A DNA stretch of 58,916 nucleotides from a bacterium. GTDB taxonomy: Bacteria; SZUA-79; Acidulodesulfobacterales; Acidulodesulfobacteraceae. The number at the start of each line of letters is the position of its first letter. Position 1 is the stretch's first letter. The stretch spans positions 1 through 58,916 of the forward strand of contig JAJYQS010000013.1 in the NCBI GenBank assembly GCA_021794475.1, read 5' to 3'. Made by a program: the position numbers and the translations under genes. This document shows, one piece after another, positions 3,525 through 35,266 of this stretch. The notes beneath the pieces are model-generated. The model was not told the DNA's origin. It did no database searches and saw nothing but the letters and a program-made list of their open reading frames with translations.

Positions 3525-4715
3525 TTATATATTATATAAAAACATTGCATCGCCGTAACTAAAAAATTTATAGTCGTTATTCATTGCTTCTTCATATAAT
3601 ATTTTCATTTTATCTAAGCCTATTAATGCGCTGAGCATAATAAAAAGAGAGGATTTAGGCTGATGAAAATTAGTTATCAAATTCTTGGTTATTTTAAATC
3701 TATAGCCGGGGTATATATATAATGATGTAATCGCATCGCTTTCGGGATTAACAGTACCGTCATCGCCCGTTGACGACTCTAAACATCTCACGGAAGACGT
3801 TCCCGTGGCTATCAGCTTGTTCCCGTGTTTGAGCGCATTGTTGATTATGTTTGCCGTTTTTTCAGAAATCTTATATCTTTCTTCATGCATATTATGGTTC
3901 TCAATATTTTTTTCACGCACCGGCGCAAATGTTCCTAATCCGATATTCAATGAAATATCTGTAAAAATGCCGCCCTTATCTTTTATTTTATTAATGAGAT
4001 TTTCTGTAAAATGCAGTCCGGCAGTAGGGGCTGCAACTGAAAAACCGGAATCTTCCTTTGCATATATCGTTTGATAATAAACTTCATCGTCCTTATCGGT
4101 TTGTCTTTTTATATATGGAGGCAGCGGAACGGCGGCGCAATTGTCAAATATAAAATTATAATCGTCCTCATTTTGAATTATTATTTCCCACGTGTTTTCT
4201 CCAAGGCGGTTTGCAGCGGTAATAAAAAAATTATTATATTGGTTACCGTCGTTATAATTATTATAATCATCGCAGCAGCCATGCTCATTTCTTACGTTCT
4301 TATTTTCTTCAAAATTGGAATATTCTGATGTGTGCTGATTGTAATCGACACTGTTTTTTTCACTGTTTGAAGGCAAAACTGTAATTCTTTCATTTTTTTT
4401 TATTTTTTTATGTGTTTTAAACAAACATTGCAAGGTAAGGGGAAAAGTAATTTTGTTCGGAAAATCCAGTATAAAAATCTCAACCTTTCCGCCCGTCTCC
4501 CTTTTGCCGAATATACGCGCTTTTTTAACATAAGAGCTGTTAACGGTTATTACATCGCCGGGATTGATATAATCAATAATGTCGTAAAATTTTTTGTGCT
4601 CTATCGTGAATTTTTTTACGTTAACGGCAAGAAGCTTCGATTCGTCTCTATTTTTAAGAGGATATTTTGCAATAAGTTTTTCGTCAAAAAAATAATTAAA
4701 ATCTTCTAAATTCAT
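3525..4715 (-). CDS. queA: S-adenosylmethionine:tRNA ribosyltransferase-isomerase
   Basis: Transfers and isomerises the ribosyl group of S-adenosylmethionine onto preQ1-tRNA to form epoxyqueuosine. Family hallmarks are the N-terminal DFNYFFDEKLIAKYPLKNRDESKLL, the central SVAAPTAGLHFTENL, and the C-terminal GTSSVRCLES and TNFHQPKSSL. At 396 residues it is longer than the usual 340-360. The excess is an Asn/Asp/Tyr-rich segment at about 117-163 containing GCCDDYNNYND, inserted between conserved strands and unlike the rest of the protein. It heads the queA-tgt-yajC-secD run. The coding sequence continues through the insert without stop or frameshift, so it is presumably translated. Confidence 0.95.
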   Translation of the reverse strand: MNLEDFNYFFDEKLIAKYPLKNRDESKLLAVNVKKFTIEHKKFYDIIDYINPGDVITVNSSYVKKARIFGKRETGGKVEIFILDFPNKITFPLTLQCLFKTHKKIKKNERITVLPSNSEKNSVDYNQHTSEYSNFEENKNVRNEHGCCDDYNNYNDGNQYNNFFITAANRLGENTWEIIIQNEDDYNFIFDNCAAVPLPPYIKRQTDKDDEVYYQTIYAKEDSGFSVAAPTAGLHFTENLINKIKDKGGIFTDISLNIGLGTFAPVREKNIENHNMHEERYKISEKTANIINNALKHGNKLIATGTSSVRCLESSTGDDGTVNPESDAITSLYIYPGYRFKITKNLITNFHQPKSSLFIMLSALIGLDKMKILYEEAMNNDYKFFSYGDAMFLYNI

Positions 4716-4986: not shown

Positions 4987-5011
4987 ACAAGGAAATGAAT
5001 TCACAAAAACA

Positions 5012-14901: not shown

Positions 14902-17610
14902 ATGTTGAAATTTAAAAATAAAATTATAGAAAAAATAAATTATCACAAATTCCCTATAATTATTTTCATTGTATTATCTTTTGTCCCTTTTTTATGGTTA
15001 TACAATAAAAATGGGACATTTTTAGGGATGGGTGATTTTGGGCTACTTTTTGTGTTTTATCATACTAATTATTTATTAAAAATAGCCCCCTATTTAATTA
15101 CTTCAGATAGTGCTATACCTGTTTTTAATGTGATATATTACCCATTTGCTGCAATATTTTCTTTTATTTTTTATATTTTGGGCAGTAATTATCAAAACTC
15201 TCAAATATTATTTTTTAGTTTAATTTTATTTATTGCAATATTTTATTTTTATTTATTTAGTCTAGCAGTTTTTGAAATGCTTGATTTTATTCCTAATAAA
15301 AAAGCTGCATCAATTTCAGCTATTTTTTATATCTTTAATTTTTTTATATTAATATTTTTTATATTTATACCATGGGCTATTTATTTACTGCCTATTGTTA
15401 GTATTATTCTTTATTATTCCATTGAAGCAGTAAAAAAACAAAAAATATCTTTAATATTATTAATTTCGTTATTTTTTTCATTATTTATAATTAATTTAGA
15501 TCTTGTTCAATATTACTATCAATTAATTTTTTTAACTTTATTTTTTATTTTTTATTATTTACTTAATAAAGAAAACATATTTGATTACTTAAACAAAAAT
15601 TTAAAATTTTTATTAAAAACATTTTTTATAATTATATTTATAAATATATGGTGGCTATTACCATTTCTTAACTATTCTCTGGGAACATATTTGCATATCA
15701 AAAAAAGTGCGGTTAGTTTTAGACATGCATACACAGCTTTGGCTTCATTTTCACACATAACTAATATATTAAGTTATTTAAGAAATGTAGGATATAGACC
15801 ATCGTTTTTCTGGTTTTTTAAGCAACGACATTATGGATGGGATAAGATTTATTATTCAACATTCTTTATTTTTTTGGGATTCTTAATTACTTTTATAATA
15901 TTAATCCCAATAATTAAAAATCCCAAAAAATTCTTTATAATTTTAATGCTTTATTTGACAAGTATTTATTTTGCGACGGGATACAATAACCCTTTTAAAA
16001 ATTTAAAATTATGGATATTGCAACATATACCATTTTCATTTATGTATTTTAGCGGCAATGTATTTCTAATTTACATCATTGTATCCGCATCTATTTTATT
16101 CGGTGCAGGTATAACTATAATATATGAATTTATTAAACTTAAATCAGGAAAGAAATTAAGTATAATTATTTTATCTATTATTATGTTAACTACTTGTATA
16201 ATATATGCTTTCCCTATGTTTTCTTATAATATATTTAATGGATATTATAATATGGAGGGCAAAAGAAGTTATTTGATAAAAATCCCATCTTATTATGCCC
16301 AATCAAAAAATTATATTCATAAATATAAAATAAATTCTAATATATTATCATTACCACTTGTTAGTCTTACCTTTTTTTATAAATGGCACCATGGGTACGA
16401 AGGTGCAGTTTACGATGACCTGCTTTTTAGCCATAGCGTAATTATCGCGAATTATTCTATTCAAGGCGATCTGCTTCGATATATACAAGATTACAATTAT
16501 TCTAAAATGTCACATATTTTAGGTATGTTTTCAGTAAAGCATATAGTACTTCAAAATGATATAATATTACCTAAAAGTAATTATATCGCTCTTAATTTTT
16601 ATAGCTCTTATATGAAATATTTATCAAAACCAGAATTAAAATCCATTTTAAACGCCTCAAAAGGCCTAAAATTAGCAAGAAAATTCGGTAAACTTGACAT
16701 ATATAAGCTATCCGATAAATATTTCATGTTCAAAGTATGGACGCCTAAAAGAGTAATATTTGTAAATCATGAGTTAAAATTGCATGATTTAGATAACTAT
16801 ATGATGCCGATTATAATGCAAAATAGCTTTAAAGTCAGAACGGCAGTATTTGCAAGGTTATTTTCTCCAAACAGGCACTCGGAAAGAATAAAAAACTATG
16901 AATTAAATAATATTGCAGACAAATATTCAAAACAATATTCATTAACCAATAAAATATTGGATATTCCCGTTTCTGATAAAATATTAAAAATATCCGAAAC
17001 AGTTAAAAAAATTAATGCGCCTGCTGTTGAATTTAAAGAAATTAACCCTTCAAAATACGCGGTTATAGTGCATAATGCAAAAGCAAGCTTTCCTCTTATC
17101 TTTAATCTAATGTATTTAGCAGGCTGGAATGTTTACCCTCAGATTTATCCTAAAAGAACGGAGGTTAATCGTTCTGAAAATAATTATAATCATAATAATA
17201 ATGCAGGCGATATATCAAAGCAGACTAATGCCGATGCACATAAAAACATAACATTCACGGGTAATAAATTTATTTCCAAAGACATAAACGGAACCGTGCA
17301 GAATAACAATATCCCTGACGGACATATCCTGCAGACTTTGTTTGAAAAACCACTGCCCGCTAAATATCACTTTGTGGCTGACGGTTATTCAAACTCATGG
17401 TGGATTAATCTTAACTATATTAAAAAATTAGGACCGCAGTATTATAAAGTCAACAAAAACGGAACGGTTGATTTTGAACTGATAATTGATTACTGGCCTC
17501 AGAGATTGCTGTATATCGGTTTGATTATTTCCGGTTCATCGCTGTTTATTATAATAGCTTTTCTGATTTATGATGCCGTAAAAAAAAGAAAAAATAAAAA
17601 AAGCGAGTAA
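14902..17610 (+). CDS. Large polytopic membrane protein, probable GT-C-type glycosyltransferase
   Basis: I do not recognise a precise family. The first 430 or so residues of 902 contain about 11-12 hydrophobic helices. An early loop, FLGMGDFGLLF (about 36-46), carries an acidic residue where GT-C enzymes have their catalytic Asp. A periplasmic-type region of about 430 residues follows, with an Asn/His-rich insert at about 755-800 (NNYNHNNNAGD). A final helix (about 870-892) ends in a basic cytoplasmic tail. The layout resembles YfhO-like and AftD-like (DUF3367) proteins that use polyprenyl-phosphate sugars outside the membrane. The DPM1-like gene at 5012 could supply that donor. Base composition becomes less A/T-rich after about 17000, as if the gene were mosaic. 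Confidence 0.6.
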   Translation: MLKFKNKIIEKINYHKFPIIIFIVLSFVPFLWLYNKNGTFLGMGDFGLLFVFYHTNYLLKIAPYLITSDSAIPVFNVIYYPFAAIFSFIFYILGSNYQNSQILFFSLILFIAIFYFYLFSLAVFEMLDFIPNKKAASISAIFYIFNFFILIFFIFIPWAIYLLPIVSIILYYSIEAVKKQKISLILLISLFFSLFIINLDLVQYYYQLIFLTLFFIFYYLLNKENIFDYLNKNLKFLLKTFFIIIFINIWWLLPFLNYSLGTYLHIKKSAVSFRHAYTALASFSHITNILSYLRNVGYRPSFFWFFKQRHYGWDKIYYSTFFIFLGFLITFIILIPIIKNPKKFFIILMLYLTSIYFATGYNNPFKNLKLWILQHIPFSFMYFSGNVFLIYIIVSASILFGAGITIIYEFIKLKSGKKLSIIILSIIMLTTCIIYAFPMFSYNIFNGYYNMEGKRSYLIKIPSYYAQSKNYIHKYKINSNILSLPLVSLTFFYKWHHGYEGAVYDDLLFSHSVIIANYSIQGDLLRYIQDYNYSKMSHILGMFSVKHIVLQNDIILPKSNYIALNFYSSYMKYLSKPELKSILNASKGLKLARKFGKLDIYKLSDKYFMFKVWTPKRVIFVNHELKLHDLDNYMMPIIMQNSFKVRTAVFARLFSPNRHSERIKNYELNNIADKYSKQYSLTNKILDIPVSDKILKISETVKKINAPAVEFKEINPSKYAVIVHNAKASFPLIFNLMYLAGWNVYPQIYPKRTEVNRSENNYNHNNNAGDISKQTNADAHKNITFTGNKFISKDINGTVQNNNIPDGHILQTLFEKPLPAKYHFVADGYSNSWWINLNYIKKLGPQYYKVNKNGTVDFELIIDYWPQRLLYIGLIISGSSLFIIIAFLIYDAVKKRKNKKSE

Positions 17611-17612
17611 TT

Positions 17613-20267
17613 ATGGATATAGATAAAAAAATCATTACAGACATAAAGGCGATACTTTCAGCGCTGTTTAAAATGGGTTTAAACTTATGGGAAAATAAGC
17701 TTAAAATCGTTAAATGGCTTGTCATTATTCTTGCCCTGTTCCTTGTTTACAGAGTTTATAAAATTTTAACGGTTCATAAAGCAGTAATTCAAAACCATGT
17801 CGTATCTAAAATAATCCGCATAAAAAAATCCGGTTATTACAAGCTCGCGGTCTATATTAAACCAAAAACGGTTTACTTTCATAAAAGGCAAATACTTGTT
17901 CAAACAAAAGGATTTAAACCGCTTTCGCAACTAACCGTACATCATTATCTGTATGGGTATAAATCTGAAGTTTTACTGAATAAAAAAAACATAGACGGAT
18001 TTAAAAAAGACAGATACCGGCATTTAATATTCAGAGCTAAAATAATGGGAAAAGGAAGCTCTCCTTTCGTTCTATTTTATCTTTCTTTTTCTAATCCTGA
18101 TTTAGCTGGCAGAATCTTATATACCCCGATTAATATTCCCGCAAAAAATATACTTAAAAACTATACTATATTGGGAAAATTCAGAAAAAACGGATACATT
18201 AAACTGACCAAGAACCCCAATAAGAAAAAGCCAAGAGTTCAGATAAATAAATTTTTATACCTTTATCCTCAATTTGCTATAAAAGGCAAAATAAAATATA
18301 TAAAAGCTTATATTGAATACAAAATTAAACATAAAAAATATTTTTCCAAGCATTTTAATCTATCAAACGGCGGTTTAATAAATCTTTACGGCGTACTTAA
18401 AAACAAAAAAATTAAGCGCTGGAGAGACGCTAAAATTGTTAAAATTTATTTTGTCGTAAAAAAATATAAAAAGATAAAAGGTTCCATTAAGATTGCCAAC
18501 TTGGGCTTAATATATCCGAATTATGAGCCTTTAAAAAAGGCATTTAAACAATTCATATACAAAAGATATTTTATAAGTTTCATGAAAAAAAGCAGATTGT
18601 TTCATAAAGTACTTTTAAAAGATATCAGGCAGGCTAAAAAAAGCAACGCATTGGAATTAAAATCTTTTAATTTTGTTTCAAAAAGAATAATAAAACAGGC
18701 TTTAATTCATGATATATTAGATGAAATATTTTCAGTTGATTATAACACTAAGATAAGGCATATTAGTCATATTAAAAATAAAATAGTCAGACATTTTTAC
18801 AGATTTGTATATAAAAAATACTTGACGGAACAAAATTTTTTCAGTCTTTTATTGTCGCATTTCAATAAACCAAAGCATTTTTATAAAAATATTTTAATCC
18901 CCGTAGGCTCAAAAGGGATTAAAATAAAAACAAGGAAAGAATTTAACGGCAATACATCTTATTACAATAAAACAACTTATATATATGTTAATTTTAATAA
19001 AATAAAATTTTATAAATATTGGCCAGCGCATAAACATATTTTAAAGAAAATACTGAAAAACTACATTTACAATAACATTTATGAACGCAATTTACATTTT
19101 CTTAAGGCGAATAATTCGCCCAAACCTTTTAAACCTTTTGTATTAAGGGGCAATAATGAAGATTACTGGCACGGCAAGCATTATTACAGGCACTATCCCA
19201 TATTAAAAAGTTTAAAGGTTTTTGCTTTTGACAAAAAAATAAATAAAATCAACGGATATTTTTATTATAAAAGCCTTCCCTTTAAATATCCAAAATTTTT
19301 AAGTTTTTCAAAAAATGTACACTTAAATAACGAAAATAAAATAAATTTTTTAAATCTGATTTCAAATAAATTTACTTATAAAAATCAGTTAAAACTTATA
19401 AATTCTTTTAATTTAAATCCTGCAGTTTTTTTAAAGAAGCCGTTTTTTACTTCAATAACCTTAACAAAAAAAAGCATAATTAATACCATAAATAAAAACG
19501 TAAGCTTTGAGCGTATCGGTTCTGGTCATGTCAATGGATTATTTTACCCCGTTATGAGTAAAACAGGTTTCAATATAAGAAGGTTTGTTCTGAAATTCAT
19601 GAATATAACCTTTATCAACCTTCGTTACGGCTTAATAAAATTTCATATTAACGGGACATATAATGAAAAATTGGCAAAAAATTTTTTAAAGTTAAGATGC
19701 CGTTTGATTAATTTTAATAAGACGAAAAACGTTGAAGTTCCTGTAAAATATTATTTATTGAACGGCAATTTATTTTTTGCGCTTAACTTAAAACATATTA
19801 ATTTAAAAAATGTCAATGAAATTATCATCAGTTTCAAACAAAAAGAAATGGTTGTTTATTATAAATATAATTTTAGAATAAATAAAAATATTTATTTTAT
19901 TCATTATGCAAAATCGCGTATGCCCTCACTAGATAATATTATAAAAAACGACCCTTTGTTTAAGTTAAATAACAACAAAATATTCTTAAATAATTTTAAA
20001 CTCTCGTTTAAAAGATTTAACAAAATTTTTAAAAACGGCGGCAGTTTTATTTCGCAAAAAATTTACCTTAAAAAAGGTAATTATAATATTGAGAAAGTAT
20101 TAAACGAAATCTTTAAAATCCAAATACTTTCTTTGCAAAAAATTAAAAACAACAGAATTAAAAACAACAACATTAAAAATGCAAAATTAGATTTAAATAA
20201 AACCAATAAAGCTAAACCGGCAAAGAAAATTATAACAAATAAAATTAAAGAAAAAAGAACATTATAA
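17613..20267 (+). CDS. Unknown, strongly basic single-pass envelope protein (884 aa)
   Basis: No family was recognised. The N-terminus has about 33 polar residues and one membrane helix at about 34-50 (KWLVIILALFLVYRVYKI), after which some 830 residues are presumably periplasmic. That part is extraordinarily rich in Lys, Asn, Ile, Phe and Tyr and poor in acidic residues. Phrases such as KIKHKKYFSKHF and KNKKIKRWRDAK recur, while the regular strand-like pattern argues against simple disorder. The last 60 residues are low-complexity Lys/Asn. It starts two bases after the GT-C-like gene and ends four bases before a small membrane protein, so the three should act together. A role in binding anionic glycan, or as a scaffold in an acidic periplasm, is speculation. 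Confidence 0.55.
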   Translation: MDIDKKIITDIKAILSALFKMGLNLWENKLKIVKWLVIILALFLVYRVYKILTVHKAVIQNHVVSKIIRIKKSGYYKLAVYIKPKTVYFHKRQILVQTKGFKPLSQLTVHHYLYGYKSEVLLNKKNIDGFKKDRYRHLIFRAKIMGKGSSPFVLFYLSFSNPDLAGRILYTPINIPAKNILKNYTILGKFRKNGYIKLTKNPNKKKPRVQINKFLYLYPQFAIKGKIKYIKAYIEYKIKHKKYFSKHFNLSNGGLINLYGVLKNKKIKRWRDAKIVKIYFVVKKYKKIKGSIKIANLGLIYPNYEPLKKAFKQFIYKRYFISFMKKSRLFHKVLLKDIRQAKKSNALELKSFNFVSKRIIKQALIHDILDEIFSVDYNTKIRHISHIKNKIVRHFYRFVYKKYLTEQNFFSLLLSHFNKPKHFYKNILIPVGSKGIKIKTRKEFNGNTSYYNKTTYIYVNFNKIKFYKYWPAHKHILKKILKNYIYNNIYERNLHFLKANNSPKPFKPFVLRGNNEDYWHGKHYYRHYPILKSLKVFAFDKKINKINGYFYYKSLPFKYPKFLSFSKNVHLNNENKINFLNLISNKFTYKNQLKLINSFNLNPAVFLKKPFFTSITLTKKSIINTINKNVSFERIGSGHVNGLFYPVMSKTGFNIRRFVLKFMNITFINLRYGLIKFHINGTYNEKLAKNFLKLRCRLINFNKTKNVEVPVKYYLLNGNLFFALNLKHINLKNVNEIIISFKQKEMVVYYKYNFRINKNIYFIHYAKSRMPSLDNIIKNDPLFKLNNNKIFLNNFKLSFKRFNKIFKNGGSFISQKIYLKKGNYNIEKVLNEIFKIQILSLQKIKNNRIKNNNIKNAKLDLNKTNKAKPAKKIITNKIKEKRTL

Positions 20268-23349: not shown

Positions 23350-24798
23350 ATGAATAATTTTCCTTATGGATTTTCAAAGGTACTTGGACACAAAAGTGAA
23401 CTGGCTTTTCTGAATAATCTGATTTTACAGGACAGAATTCCATCAGGTCTGATATTTTACGGTCAGGAATCGATAGGAAAAAAATTTGCCGCTTTCTCAT
23501 TCGCCTCATCTGCGCTGTGCTTAGATTTTAATTTAGATTTAAATTTTAATAGCGGCAATAGTAAAAAATTAACCGGCAGCGAAGAGAGCAATGGCGGCTG
23601 CAGCAGTAATTTAAATAATTCCTCTTCAGCATTGTTTGAACCGTGCGGAGAATGTTCATCCTGCGTTGGAATACTTAATAAAACAAATTCCAATATAATT
23701 TATATAGAGCCTGAAAAAGGACTGATAAATATAGACAAAATTAATGGATTAGCAAGGTCTCTTTCGCTTTTGCCTGCGAACAATACGCATAGATTTGTTA
23801 TTATAGACGATGTTTCTAAAATGAATGCAGGCGCAATGAACTCAATCTTAAAAATTTTAGAAGAACCTCCGGAAAAAACGGTTTTTATTTTAATAGCGGC
23901 AAATTTAAATAGTATTCTGCCTACCATAATATCACGATGTATGATTGTAAATTTTAAACCTATAAATGAAAAAATATTATTAGGCTATGCTAAAAGTTAC
24001 TATAATGCCAATGACAACCGAAATAATAACGACGATAACAATGGCAATAATAATGACAATAATGATGACGATGTCAATGAAAACAACATAGCCGGCAAAG
24101 AAGATAGAGAAGATAGAGAAGATAGAGAAATTAAGGGGTTTAATAACAACGGCGATATACTAACTGCGTATGTAAGACTCGCAAGAGGCAGTATATCAAA
24201 TTTAGCTAATTTAATGTCAGGCAATTATATAAAACTCAGAAATGAGATTTTTGATATTTTTATCAGTGAATCATTTAACAAAAAATTACCTTTTTATAAT
24301 TATAATATGTCCGATAAATTTAATAATATTATAAAAAATTATAAAGAAAACGGAAGCAAAAGCAATAAGTCAGGCAGCAAAACCGGCATTAAAACAAGAA
24401 AGGAAAACTTGATTAAATCTGATAATATGCAAGGGGCGCTTAATCAAAATAATTATAAAAATAATTATTTGAATATTGATAACGGTATACATCCAAATAA
24501 TCTAAAGCTAAATTCCGGTCTAAATATAAATATAGATAATGCAGATATAGATGAGAGCTATATTTTTGAAATTATACTTGTCATATTAAGAGACATTTTA
24601 GTTTATTTAGTTACAAAAAATATAAAATTAATATATAATGTAGATGTTTACGAAGAAATAAAAAAAATAGCTATGCTTGATAATTTTGATGAAGAAAAAA
24701 TTTCTGAAATGCTCGAAATTACCTTAAGCCATATTAACGGTCTCAATTACAATTTAAATAAACATATTTCTTTAGACAGATACTTTTCGGCGATATGA
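23350..24798 (+). CDS. holB: DNA polymerase III delta' subunit
   Basis: Clamp-loader component that helps load the sliding clamp. Recognisable core elements are FYGQESIGKKFAAFSFA (a degenerate Walker A), the zinc-module cysteines in ALCLDF and CGECSSC, FVIIDDVSKMNAGAMNSILKILEEPP and IISRCMIV (the SRC motif of AAA+ clamp loaders). The 482 residues exceed the usual 320-340. The surplus is low-complexity: a Ser/Asn stretch at about 60-97, an Asn/Asp stretch at about 217-264 that ends in three EDR repeats, and a Lys/Asn stretch at about 315-385. The degenerate P-loop fits delta' rather than the ATPase subunit tau/gamma. Confidence 0.88.
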   Translation: MNNFPYGFSKVLGHKSELAFLNNLILQDRIPSGLIFYGQESIGKKFAAFSFASSALCLDFNLDLNFNSGNSKKLTGSEESNGGCSSNLNNSSSALFEPCGECSSCVGILNKTNSNIIYIEPEKGLINIDKINGLARSLSLLPANNTHRFVIIDDVSKMNAGAMNSILKILEEPPEKTVFILIAANLNSILPTIISRCMIVNFKPINEKILLGYAKSYYNANDNRNNNDDNNGNNNDNNDDDVNENNIAGKEDREDREDREIKGFNNNGDILTAYVRLARGSISNLANLMSGNYIKLRNEIFDIFISESFNKKLPFYNYNMSDKFNNIIKNYKENGSKSNKSGSKTGIKTRKENLIKSDNMQGALNQNNYKNNYLNIDNGIHPNNLKLNSGLNINIDNADIDESYIFEIILVILRDILVYLVTKNIKLIYNVDVYEEIKKIAMLDNFDEEKISEMLEITLSHINGLNYNLNKHISLDRYFSAI

Positions 24799-27408: not shown

Positions 27409-28842
27409 ATGATAGATTCGCATTGCCATTTAGAGATGAAAGATTTTGATGCAGACCGTTCCGCTGTATTCGAAAATATGGAAAAATTTGGTATAACCCA
27501 TGCTATATCCATAGGTTCTTTAGCAGAAAACGAAAGGTTGGAAAAAACGATTCAGATTGTCAATGAGCACGGTAATATATTTACGACTCTTGGAGTTCAT
27601 CCAAAAAGTGAGTATAAGAGTGTTGGCGATATAAAAAATTTGTTTGAAATAAATTTTTCAAATTTAAAAGAAAAGGTTGTCGCGATTGGAGAGATAGGGC
27701 TTGACTATTTTGAAGACGGCGAAAAAACGATAGATAAAAAAAAGCAGGAAGAGCTGTTCAGATTTCAGATTGAGCTTGCGTTAGCCAATAAACTTCCCAT
27801 TGCCATTCATATAAGGGATGCTTACGACGAAGCATATGAAATCTTAAAAAGCTATCACAATTCCGATTATTTATTTTATGGAGGAGTCATTCACTGTTTT
27901 TCAGGTAAAAATATTGAAGAAGCTGATAAATTTTTAGACCTCGGATATTTTATTTCAATAGCCGGCAAGATAACGTATAGAAAAAATCAGCACTTAAGAG
28001 ACATAGCGAAAGTTCTTCCTGATGAAAAAATATTAATAGAAACAGACAGCCCTTTTCTTGCTCCCCAAAAATACCGCGGAAAAAGAAACGAACCGTCTTA
28101 TGTAAGATTTATAGCTGAAACAATAGCAAATGAAAAAAATATTGAATTGGAAAAATTTAAAGAATTAACGGTGCAGAATACCGTGAATCTGTTTTCTCTT
28201 AGCGGTGTAGATAATTTTTATCCTGCCGTAGCCTATAAAATCAGAGATTCAATTTACGTTAATCTTACGAATAAATGCACGAATCAATGTATTTTTTGTC
28301 CTAAATATCAGAACGGCGCGGTCAATTTTAATGTAAAAGGATATAATCTTGAATTAAAACATGAACCATCGGAAACCGAAGTTTTATCATCTATTTTTCA
28401 TTATTACAATTTTAAAGAAGTTGTATTTTGCGGACTGGGAGAACCGACTTTGCGTTTGGACGTTCTTAAAAAAGTAGCGGCGGAGCTTAAAAATAAAGGA
28501 ATTTATGTAAGACTTGATACCGACGGGCTTGCTAATGCCGTTTACAACCGGAATGTAGCGAAAGAGCTGGGAGAATATATAGACAGTATAAGCATAAGTC
28601 TTAATGCCGCCGACAGCGATTATTATAATGCAGTTTGCAGACCAATGCTCAAAAAAAATAGCGGTTTAAACATTAATCCTTTTAACTCAATTTTAGAATT
28701 TATAGACGAATCGAAAAAATATATAAATGATGTTGCGGTTTCGGCAGTCGGGTTAAAAGATTTAAATATAGAAAAAGTAAAAAAAATTGCGGAAGAAAAA
28801 ATGGTAAAATTTAAATTTCGTAAATATAATGATGTGGGATAA
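27409..28842 (+). CDS. TatD-family hydrolase fused to a radical SAM domain
   Basis: One 477-residue frame joins two enzymes. Residues 1 to about 262 are a TatD metal-dependent nuclease: HCH near residue 6, GEIGLDY with its metal-binding Glu (about 95), HIRDA, HCFSG and ETDSPFLAP. From about 275 a radical SAM domain follows, with Cys290, Cys294 and Cys297 in NKCTNQCIFCPKY and the SAM-binding region VFCGLGEPTLRLD. It matches what I recall as the TatD-associated radical SAM family, usually a separate neighbouring gene. The join (about 262-280) has no stop and no internal start with a clear ribosome site. Substrate and purpose of the radical SAM part are unknown. tatD is often next to metG, as here. 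Confidence 0.88.
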   Translation: MIDSHCHLEMKDFDADRSAVFENMEKFGITHAISIGSLAENERLEKTIQIVNEHGNIFTTLGVHPKSEYKSVGDIKNLFEINFSNLKEKVVAIGEIGLDYFEDGEKTIDKKKQEELFRFQIELALANKLPIAIHIRDAYDEAYEILKSYHNSDYLFYGGVIHCFSGKNIEEADKFLDLGYFISIAGKITYRKNQHLRDIAKVLPDEKILIETDSPFLAPQKYRGKRNEPSYVRFIAETIANEKNIELEKFKELTVQNTVNLFSLSGVDNFYPAVAYKIRDSIYVNLTNKCTNQCIFCPKYQNGAVNFNVKGYNLELKHEPSETEVLSSIFHYYNFKEVVFCGLGEPTLRLDVLKKVAAELKNKGIYVRLDTDGLANAVYNRNVAKELGEYIDSISISLNAADSDYYNAVCRPMLKKNSGLNINPFNSILEFIDESKKYINDVAVSAVGLKDLNIEKVKKIAEEKMVKFKFRKYNDVG

Positions 28843-28959: not shown

Positions 28960-30276
28960 ATGAATCAAAACGCTATCTATATTGACTGTTTCAGCGGCAT
29001 ATCGGGCGATAAATTTCTGAGCGCTTTATATAATTTAGACTTAATCAAAGAAAAACAATTATGCGATGCAGTAGATAATTTAAATATACAGAATTTTTCT
29101 TCAAAAGATATTCTTTTCGAGGAAACGCAAAAAAAAGGTTTTCGCGGGTTATTGCTGAGAATAAATCAAGATAAGCTATCTGTAAAATTCAAAACAATAA
29201 ACGAAGTAAATAAGCAGATTGATTTAATTAATTTTAGAAATGATATTAAAAACGATATACGCCTGATTTACAATATTTTATTTGAGGCAGAAGGATATAT
29301 CCACGGAAAATCTTTAAAAGAACTGCATCTTCATGAAGTTGCAAGCATCGACACACTTATAGACGTATCATTGTCCGCCTTTATTATTAATGAACTTAAT
29401 TTAAAAAATAACGGAAATTATAATATAATCTGTTCTAAAATAAACTTAGGTTCAGGCATTATAGATATCTCGCACGGTACTTTATCGGTACCGCCTCCTG
29501 CAGTTTCCTATATATTAAAAGAAGTACCTGTTTACGGTTTTGGCGATGATACCGAGTTAACCACGCCCACCGGAGCTGCGCTTATTAAATATTATGCCGG
29601 CGGATTCAGCGAAAAAATACCCTCAATGGAAATTATTTCAGAAGGTTACGGCTGCGGGTCGAAAGACCTGAACAGATTAGCGAATATTTTGAGAATTTTT
29701 TACGGAAAATTAAATAAGCATTCTTCTTTTGGTTATAGTTATAGCTTTTACAATAATGCTAACTGCGCCGGCAGCGGTAATTACAAAAATAATATTGACG
29801 GCGGCAATAATCCGCAAATCCCAGATATGATGGATATGATGAATTATGGAGAAATCGTTGAAATGCAGTGTAATATTGACGATATGAATCCGGAGATATA
29901 TGATTTTGTAATCGAAAAATTATTTAAAAACGGAGCAGTAGATGTTTTTCTCACACCGGTAATAATGAAAAAAAATAGACCCGGCATTGTTTTAAATGTT
30001 TTATGCGATGTTCCGTCAATAAAGAAATTATCGGCGGTTATAATGGAAGAAACCACGACTATAGGGGTCAGAATAGCAATAAAAGATAAAATTTATATAG
30101 ACAGATTTACGGAAGAGCTCAATACTCCGTATGGTACAATTAAGGTTAAAGTATCTAAATCGGGAAATAAAATCCTAAATAAAAAACCCGAATATGAAAA
30201 CTTAAAAAAAATAGCGCTAAGCAATAATGTTTCTTTAAAGGAAGTTTATAATGCCATCAATAAAATAATCAAATAA
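28960..30276 (+). CDS. larC: Nickel-pincer-nucleotide cofactor nickel insertase LarC
   Basis: Inserts nickel into the pincer nucleotide used by lactate racemase-type enzymes. The 438 residues begin AIYIDCFSGISGDKFLSAL, and later show ELHLHEVASIDTLIDV, DISHGTLSVPPPA, LTTPTGAALIKYY and QCNIDDMNPEIYDFV, all family signatures. In some lactobacilli larC is split by a programmed frameshift; here both halves lie in one frame. A low-complexity stretch with MMDMM and NNIDGGNN at about 253-296 sits exactly between the two halves. larB (34493) and larE (36393) complete the known cofactor pathway in the same window; larA is not seen. Confidence 0.93.
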   Translation: MNQNAIYIDCFSGISGDKFLSALYNLDLIKEKQLCDAVDNLNIQNFSSKDILFEETQKKGFRGLLLRINQDKLSVKFKTINEVNKQIDLINFRNDIKNDIRLIYNILFEAEGYIHGKSLKELHLHEVASIDTLIDVSLSAFIINELNLKNNGNYNIICSKINLGSGIIDISHGTLSVPPPAVSYILKEVPVYGFGDDTELTTPTGAALIKYYAGGFSEKIPSMEIISEGYGCGSKDLNRLANILRIFYGKLNKHSSFGYSYSFYNNANCAGSGNYKNNIDGGNNPQIPDMMDMMNYGEIVEMQCNIDDMNPEIYDFVIEKLFKNGAVDVFLTPVIMKKNRPGIVLNVLCDVPSIKKLSAVIMEETTTIGVRIAIKDKIYIDRFTEELNTPYGTIKVKVSKSGNKILNKKPEYENLKKIALSNNVSLKEVYNAINKIIK

Positions 30277-34492: not shown

Positions 34493-35266
34493 TTATTTAA
34501 TCTTTTTATTAATGATGCTTGCTGCCACGCCGGCGCCGAATCCGTTGTCTATGTTTACCGTTAATAAACCTCCGGAGCAGCTGTTAAGCATAGAAAGAAG
34601 AGCCGATATTCCGTTAAATCCGGTTCCATAACCATTAGACGAAGGAACTGCGATGACCGTTGCATCGACTAAACTTGAAATAAAAGTAGGAAGCACGCCG
34701 TCCATTCCGGCAACGGCTATGATAACGTTAGCCGATTTAATTTTGTCTATATTGTCAAAAATTCTGTGAGTTCCGGCAACTCCTATATCGTAAAGTTTAG
34801 ATATTTTATTCCCCAAAACTTCTGCCGTAACTGCGGCTTCTTCGGCAACCGGTATATCAGATGTACCTGCGGTAACGATAAGAATATTTCCTTTAAGTTT
34901 GCATTCCTCCGGCTGCAGCGGATTTAATACTATAATTTTTGCTTTGTCGTAGTATATTGTTTTTTTGCAGTTTGAAAGAAGGATATTTTTGATTTTATAA
35001 TTTACTCTCGTAAAAATGACGTTATTTGCAATCCTTTCTAATGTTTTTGCTATTTTTAAAATCTCTGCCGGGGTTTTTCCGTCGCATAAAACTGCTTCAG
35101 GCTTGCCTGCTCTTTTTAGACGGTTAATATCTAATTTTGCAAAATGCAGGTTGATATAATTCGTGTCGGCGCAGGTATTATTGTCTGTGAAATTTTTGTC
35201 AAAAGGCTCCATAAAATTGCTCTTTAATTTAACCTTTAAATTATTTTTTATTTGCATTAAAAACAT
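34493..35266 (-). CDS. larB: Pincer nucleotide synthase LarB (NAMN carboxylase/hydrolase)
   Basis: First enzyme of nickel-pincer-nucleotide synthesis: it carboxylates nicotinic acid adenine dinucleotide and releases AMP. The 257 residues contain PEAVLCDGKTPAEILKIA, ILIVTAGTSDIPVAEEAAVTAEVLG, the PurE-like YDIGVAGTHRIF, and AVAGMDGVLPTFISSL with IAVPSSNGYGTGFNG. The N-terminal 40 residues are divergent, and a later start (Met19) is possible. It lies on the minus strand, divergent from the SurA/PpiD-like gene (58 bp) and convergent with mreD. larE is 1.1 kb away, larC 4.2 kb on the other side. Confidence 0.92.
   Translation of the reverse strand: MFLMQIKNNLKVKLKSNFMEPFDKNFTDNNTCADTNYINLHFAKLDINRLKRAGKPEAVLCDGKTPAEILKIAKTLERIANNVIFTRVNYKIKNILLSNCKKTIYYDKAKIIVLNPLQPEECKLKGNILIVTAGTSDIPVAEEAAVTAEVLGNKISKLYDIGVAGTHRIFDNIDKIKSANVIIAVAGMDGVLPTFISSLVDATVIAVPSSNGYGTGFNGISALLSMLNSCSGGLLTVNIDNGFGAGVAASIINKKIK

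Follow-up and report, generated by a model that had tools for sequence, protein, structure and literature searches.

Does a TatD nuclease joined to a radical SAM domain in one reading frame represent a real protein, and would its two halves work together? The question is raised by a gene (27409–28842, + strand) in a 58,916-nt stretch of DNA, here called the window, from a bacterium of the Acidulodesulfobacteraceae (contig JAJYQS010000013.1). The gene encodes 477 aa plus a stop. On translation of the window all 477 codons were open, with no internal stop, and both domains scored above curated cut-offs, as expected from the original prediction of a single uninterrupted frame carrying both. That the two-domain architecture is real is, in our judgement, practically certain.

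Two genes joined by an assembly or sequencing error at about 28200 had been named as the alternative, and separate frames were sought in relatives. In a protein search of 41 genomes, residues 1–477 were matched in one stop-free frame by the window's own genome and by 23 of 24 same-family relatives (58–97% identity). The match in the 24th relative (G005, residues 1–437) reached base 5002 of a 5003-base contig, the remainder lying on another contig. Of the 16 genomes outside the family in the same search, three (G029, G034 and G037) matched near full length in one frame, and in the other 13 the best row covered TatD only. The fusion is also present in 71 of the best 80 of the confirmed loci described below. 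An error could draw some support from forms in which the two genes are adjacent, two in Elusimicrobiota (L091 and L095) and the others in six further genomes, but the two Elusimicrobiota loci belong to distant lineages and so give no hint of an error in the window gene. The same-family relatives thus ruled out a sequencing error as the source of the fusion, and we regard it as extremely improbable.

The TatD domain (residues 1–263; 27409–28197, +) scored 247.4 bits with the NCBIfam model TIGR00010 (cut-off 206) and 245.5 with PF01026 of Pfam (cut-off 27). It is of the YcfH type, with the HxH motif of Group II. The metal motif DSHCH (27415–27429, +), including H5 and H7, aligned with that of YcfH (1yix) and was kept in 82 of 84 aligned fusions, the other two rows being gapped there. 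The further ligands E95 (27691–27693), H134 (27808–27810), H162 (27892–27894) and D213 (28045–28047), all on the + strand, were present in 84 of 84 rows, and on alignment to 1yix and 1j6o the two-metal site was complete. Sequence comparison showed the canonical YcfH positions to be common to fused and unfused TatDs. The best solved relatives by sequence were 1j6o, 1yix and 2gzx, which superposed in VIA at Z 35.0–37.6 (rmsd 1.4–1.9 over 250–255 residues); the ten best solved TatDs gave Z 33–38. In the window assembly (92% complete), the fusion carries the sole TatD found. According to PMC10085689, Group II TatD nucleases are defined by the HxH motif, E. coli TatD, YcfH and YjjV are 3′-5′ exonucleases with AP-endonuclease activity, and E. 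coli without these enzymes is H2O2-sensitive. By analogy, the fused TatD half is most likely a two-metal exonuclease/AP endonuclease.

The radical SAM domain (residues 274–474; 28228–28830, +) scored 233.6 bits with TIGR04038 (cut-off 129.7) and 67.9 with PF04055 (cut-off 29.5). TIGR04038 is named "tatD_link_rSAM", in agreement with the earlier statement that TatD is here joined to a radical SAM family recognized as a tatD neighbor. The [4Fe-4S] motif CxxxCxxC (C290, C294 and C297; 28276–28299, +) and the sequence GLGEPTLR (residues 342–349; 28432–28455, +), a GGEP-type SAM motif with a family-specific Arg349, lie exactly where they had first been placed, as do the TatD metal residues. The Cys triad was kept in 84 of 84 fused rows and in all 131 rows of a wider set of fused, adjacent and solo radical SAM forms. 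G342, G344 and E345 were present in 84 of 84 aligned fusions, P346 in 79 and R349 in 83. Y283, T287, the Cys triad, G342, G344, R368, G373, S397 and R471 were equally conserved in solo and adjacent forms, suggesting that the covalent link is not needed for the chemistry of this core.

The protein stops at the end of the barrel, leaving a radical SAM domain of ~200 residues without an auxiliary-cluster extension. Modeled alone, this domain had a pLDDT of 93.2 and a pTM of 0.90. Its fold matched NifB (Z 16.8), PFL activase (16.3), TYW1 (15.1), RlmN (14.8), viperin (14.7), MoaA (13.6) and QueE (12.7), with rmsd 2.5–3.5 over 168–187 residues. A sequence profile of the same half found RlmN (1.3e-6), MoaA (1.1e-5), a sactipeptide-type radical SAM domain protein (1.5e-4; so typed from the title of 5why), PFL activase (8e-4) and TYW1 (0.0046–0.0057). 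In these models the order of the closest folds is tied and not selective. As the nearest enzymes mix several with nucleotide or RNA substrates (MoaA, viperin, RlmN and TYW1) with NifB and PFL activase, they provide only a lean towards a substrate class. Membership of the characterized families was not found with NCBIfam: three MoaA models gave 37.9, 35.7 and 28.9 bits (cut-offs 325.25, 231 and 284.05), viperin gave 30.1 (cut-off 180), and no QueE model was among the matches of the window protein. The C-terminal segment of RlmN, which holds its methyl-carrying Cys355, was sought and was absent, the VIA alignments stopping at RlmN residue 314, where the window protein ends.

Between the halves lies a linker of ten residues (264–273; 28198–28227, +). 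A two-domain AlphaFold2 model from a 74-row fusion alignment had a mean pLDDT of 94.5 and a pTM of 0.91, and its linker blocks were well predicted (block-mean pLDDT 94 over residues 261–280). The 74 rows were a further selection, as were those of a 49-row alignment; the 84-row alignment itself had dropped L043, L048 and L078 of the 71 fused loci and several same-genus copies. D249 and R252, on the last TatD helix, occurred together in 97 of 107 fusions; among non-fused TatDs, D249 was absent from all 8 adjacent ones and present in 2 of the 20 unlinked ones. R279 was carried by 93% of the 107 fusions and 38% of the 16 solo rows, and by none of the 8 adjacent rows. From these counts D249–R252 and R279 are read as a fusion-specific domain contact near the joint. 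This reading is weakened by the window's own family, which has lost the D–R pair and makes up 8 of the 10 exceptions, and by shared ancestry, which inflates such counts.

A third domain was sought in 19 long frames, and only low-complexity or out-of-frame-looking extensions were seen. Three fusions have long basic R/G-rich tails before TatD, e.g. RRRRGRRFGRGG, at L096:2852-3241, L179:1742-2131 and L184:1918-2211, each preceded by a candidate start codon (ATG or GTG). Many RNA-binding proteins carry R/G-rich tails, and judged by composition these look like putative nucleic-acid-binding extensions.

A survey of domain architectures for TatD-radical SAM fusions had been proposed, and it showed the fusion to be recurrent across many phyla and widespread. 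In the window's phylum set, TIGR04038 was above cut-off in 29 of 30 genomes, the one without it being 59% complete (G044). Outside the family it was found in 84 of 356 genomes (386-genome survey, E <= 1e-25). Sixty-eight of these matches lay in frames of at least 453 aa, 15 in frames of 200–323 aa and one (G060) at a contig end. For 26 of the 68 long frames the fused call rests on frame length; TatD in the same frame was checked for the other 42 (27 in L108–L137 and G187, 12 in L178–L189 and G034, and G037). TatD adjoined six of the 15 short-frame matches, and nine had no TatD in the fetched stretch; all nine of these genomes had TatD elsewhere, in one case (G203) on the same contig at a distance of ~8 kb. 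The family was also detected in Methanosarcina acetivorans (1 of 14 control genomes).

A scan of genome contigs gave at least 588 confirmed TIGR04038 loci. The best 80 of these, picked by similarity and with flanks of up to 4 kb, comprised 71 fused, two adjacent (L091 and L095) and seven radical SAM-only loci, from Nitrospinota, Nitrospirota, Planctomycetota, Omnitrophota, Desulfuromonadales, Bacteroidota/Ignavibacteria and others. Some TIGR04038 matches contained in-frame stops: G342:C3 (TGA), G131:C13 (TGA) and G371:C444 (TAG and TAA). These are possibly pseudogenes, frameshifts, matches ending past a stop, or cases of recoding. A viral origin was considered and rejected, no relative being found in viral_contigs with patterns drawn from the one protein.

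The relation between fused and separate forms was examined in two trees. The radical SAM tree had 131 rows (107 fused, 8 adjacent and 16 solo), once close same-genus copies, duplicates and the truncated L043 and L078 had been left out. Fused versus not fused required 8 changes on this tree, against a mean of 22.3 after shuffling, and solo rows were interspersed with fused ones, six gammaproteobacterial solos, for example, standing beside the window's family in a 96* set. The TatD tree (107 fused and 28 unfused) also required 8 changes, at least 2 of them by well-supported branches. Both trees were built by a quick method and are poorly supported at many branches, 44 and 47 forks being left open. 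Across the 107 fusions the pairwise distances within one domain tracked those within the other (mirror r 0.773, against at most 0.104 in 500 shuffles); shared ancestry alone can yield such a correlation, so it indicates co-inheritance and not contact. Together the trees suggest an old fusion that was split repeatedly, and several independent fusions would also be compatible with the weak branches, because of which repeated splitting is a reading and not a proof.

The position of the gene "next to metG" had been taken as a hint of function. The order holB-ricT-metG lies upstream of the window fusion and in many other loci. Near the radical SAM gene, a metG/ricT cluster was seen in 41 of 108 loci, some loci being too short to show it; the other neighbor clusters were holB-type (23), tmk (7) and a mixed both-strand cluster (22), of which an example resembled a response regulator by eye. 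A search of the 108 loci for another recurrent partner gave no further cluster in more than seven loci. Unfused tatD stood in the order holB-ricT-metG-tatD in L091, L095, L138 and L139, as it does in Bacillus subtilis. Since unfused tatD occupies the same place, the neighborhood belongs to TatD and not to the fusion, and proximity to metG, with the cluster in just 41 of the 108 loci, was dropped as evidence of function. Assigning a function from context was likewise rejected, as the 108 loci show mainly the four clusters above.

Downstream of the window fusion lie larC, a YhaM-like exoribonuclease gene on the other strand and mreBC. Of ten window neighbors scanned with NCBIfam, nine belonged to housekeeping or cofactor families and one had no match. 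The nickel-pincer cofactor genes larC (28960–30276, +), directly 3′ of the fusion, and larB (34493–35266, −) are on opposite strands, ~4 kb apart, with mreBC between them. HolB (23350–24798) is a 482-aa protein with long N/D-rich low-complexity inserts, its best TIGR00678 stretch covering only residues 85–216 at a score below the cut-off. Two very long adjacent frames were also noted, 14902–17610 (902 aa) and 17613–20267 (884 aa), the latter K/N-rich with a hydrophobic N-terminal stretch. Around the solo radical SAM genes, inspection of ORF starts by eye showed neighbors that varied between lineages. In the gammaproteobacterial loci L083, L098, L102 and L106 (Sedimenticola/Thiodiazotropha type) the solo gene (~3900–4600) follows a similar gene in each case, which by eye we take to be HDOD-like; it is followed, in L102 and L106, by another gene that by eye is radical SAM-like.

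What the protein does was considered on this basis. Our preferred reading, offered tentatively and with somewhat less than even confidence, is a coupled two-activity enzyme whose halves act on the same nucleic acid. The radical SAM half would cleave SAM to a 5′-deoxyadenosyl radical, which would abstract hydrogen from nucleic acid or from a nucleotide, within DNA or RNA or cut from it, so that a residue is modified or a damaged residue repaired. The TatD half would hydrolyze the same nucleic acid beside that residue, trimming a 3′ end or cutting at a lesion, and the nuclease and radical steps would be coupled by hand-over of the substrate between the halves. Considered in its favor were the R/G-rich tails, the profile matches to RlmN, MoaA and TYW1 and the similarity to viperin and MoaA; activases and NifB score as well, so the radical SAM half leans only weakly towards nucleotides. 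Against it stand the solo radical SAM genes with the same core, which in 16 of 131 rows have no TatD nearby, so coupling would not be obligatory; all nine of these rows that were checked came from genomes with TatD elsewhere. Also against it are the loss of the D249–R252 pair in the window's own family and the scarcity of recurrent partner genes other than holB-ricT-metG. The original prediction that the two halves serve the same substrate or complex therefore stands in part. A functional linkage is likely from the recurrent fusion, the adjacent forms (8 of 131 rows), the co-inheritance and the fusion-specific residues; a strict "one complex" does not fit the 16 solo rows, which are without TatD in the fetched stretch. 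A further-reaching reading, that the protein belongs to a new class of radical SAM enzymes for repairing nucleic acids or processing their ends, seems rather unlikely; in it the radical SAM half would install or reverse a nucleotide modification, and TatD would cut at, or trim to, that residue. Spore photoproduct lyase is a radical SAM DNA repair enzyme; the new class, if real, would resemble it but have a nuclease built in, and would be a coupled system of long standing in many bacterial phyla.

Three other roles were weighed against the coupled one. The radical SAM half might make a metabolite or cofactor on which, in place of nucleic acid, the TatD barrel acts as a metal-dependent amidohydrolase or phosphoesterase. 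TatD does belong to a superfamily with many hydrolases, phosphotriesterase-like lactonases and isoaspartyl dipeptidases are further fold matches of the TatD half (Z about 19–21), and the fold neighbors of the radical SAM half include small-molecule enzymes of the MoaA and QueE kinds. The ten best TatD matches nevertheless scored far above those other hydrolases, the full YcfH consensus of the unfused nucleases is retained, and the genome's QueC and separate QueE-like gene mean that the protein is not a missing QueE; such a pathway is improbable, at a level we would set beside that of the new repair class. Somewhat more doubtful is an activase-like role, in which the radical SAM half would modify a protein (TatD or a partner in translation or RNA processing, such as RicT or MetG) and TatD would be mainly a targeting domain or partner. 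PFL activase, which acts on a protein, was the top Foldseek match of the radical SAM domain and within 0.5 Z of the best fold match; the domain is small and without an auxiliary cluster, like activases, and many loci have the ricT-metG neighborhood. Yet the NCBIfam activase models scored far below cut-off (PFLA 28.1 against 231.75, NrdG2 26.9 against 131.15), many fusions lie away from ricT and metG, and mere docking is hard to square with a TatD half whose catalytic residues persist across the 84 rows.

The least probable of the three, quite unlikely in our view, is a join of convenience, a chance read-through of neighbors kept for co-expression without a common substrate. The repeated apparent splitting into adjacent or unlinked genes (8 changes), which shows the covalent link to be dispensable, speaks for it. 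The tight linker and the fusion-specific residues speak against it, and the fusion is kept in 68 of the 84 outside-family matches by frame length, from Nitrospinota to Bacteroidota, a retention so deep across phyla that it would be unexpected for a neutral join.

A role in defense and one as a substitute for QueE were tried and rejected. A defense island was not apparent: the PADLOC matches were limited to QatD (71.7 bits) and pVip (29.7 bits), no Qat genes were found among the ten neighbors scanned with NCBIfam, and nine of these neighbors were of housekeeping or cofactor type. The idea of a QueE substitute came from the pairing of QueC with TatD in Qat, but both QueC and a gene resembling QueE are present in the genome; the QueE-like gene (G000:C63) is distinct from the fusion and scores under the TIGR03365 cut-off. 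Two QueC-family genes were seen (G000:C102:6463-7191 and the weaker-scoring G000:C100:706-1275), and in several genus members the match to the main QueC was broken in two inside a single frame, which would fit an insertion.

TIGR04038 is a large radical SAM family whose NCBIfam name carries no function, and about a fifth of the outside-family genomes (68 of 356, judged by frame length) have it joined to a nuclease of DNA-repair type. With both active sites in one protein, a hunt for the substrate can start from known TatD substrates. The fusion is an already catalogued, widespread and co-inherited family with an ordinary architecture, to which the window copy adds one lineage and no new arrangement. 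No description of a TatD-radical SAM fusion was found in the limited paper collection searched, and the available portions of PMC10085689, PMC3478167, PMC13329287 and PMC3130047 describe none.

Compared with known systems, the window TatD half shares all metal ligands and the HCFSG and RGKRNEP blocks with YcfH/YabD-type (Group II, HxH) TatDs, at 29–42% identity over 250–255 residues to 2gzx, 6l25, 1zzm, 1j6o and 1yix; the protein differs from them by its C-terminal radical SAM domain and is otherwise canonical. QatD of the Qat anti-phage system is a TatD-family nuclease like this half, but the window protein scored 82.5 bits with the NCBIfam QatD model, against a cut-off of 230. The radical SAM half shows remote sequence and fold similarity to RlmN, TYW1, MoaA and viperin over the core barrel. 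It differs in scoring far below the cut-offs of these families, where listed, and in ending before the C-terminal segment of RlmN and the C-terminal auxiliary-cluster region that MoaA has. The closest other NCBIfam radical SAM model, TIGR04100 (rSAM_pair_X), matched the same stretch at 164.2 bits, below its cut-off of 262. Residues 274–474 belong instead to TIGR04038, typed "subfamily_domain" in NCBIfam; its full name there, TatD family nuclease-associated radical SAM protein, already points to TatD. Within it, the window's family shows no major departure; it differs from most fusions by the missing D249–R252 pair and has small insertions near residues 302–305 and 415–417, and shares with them the fusion to TatD in one frame.
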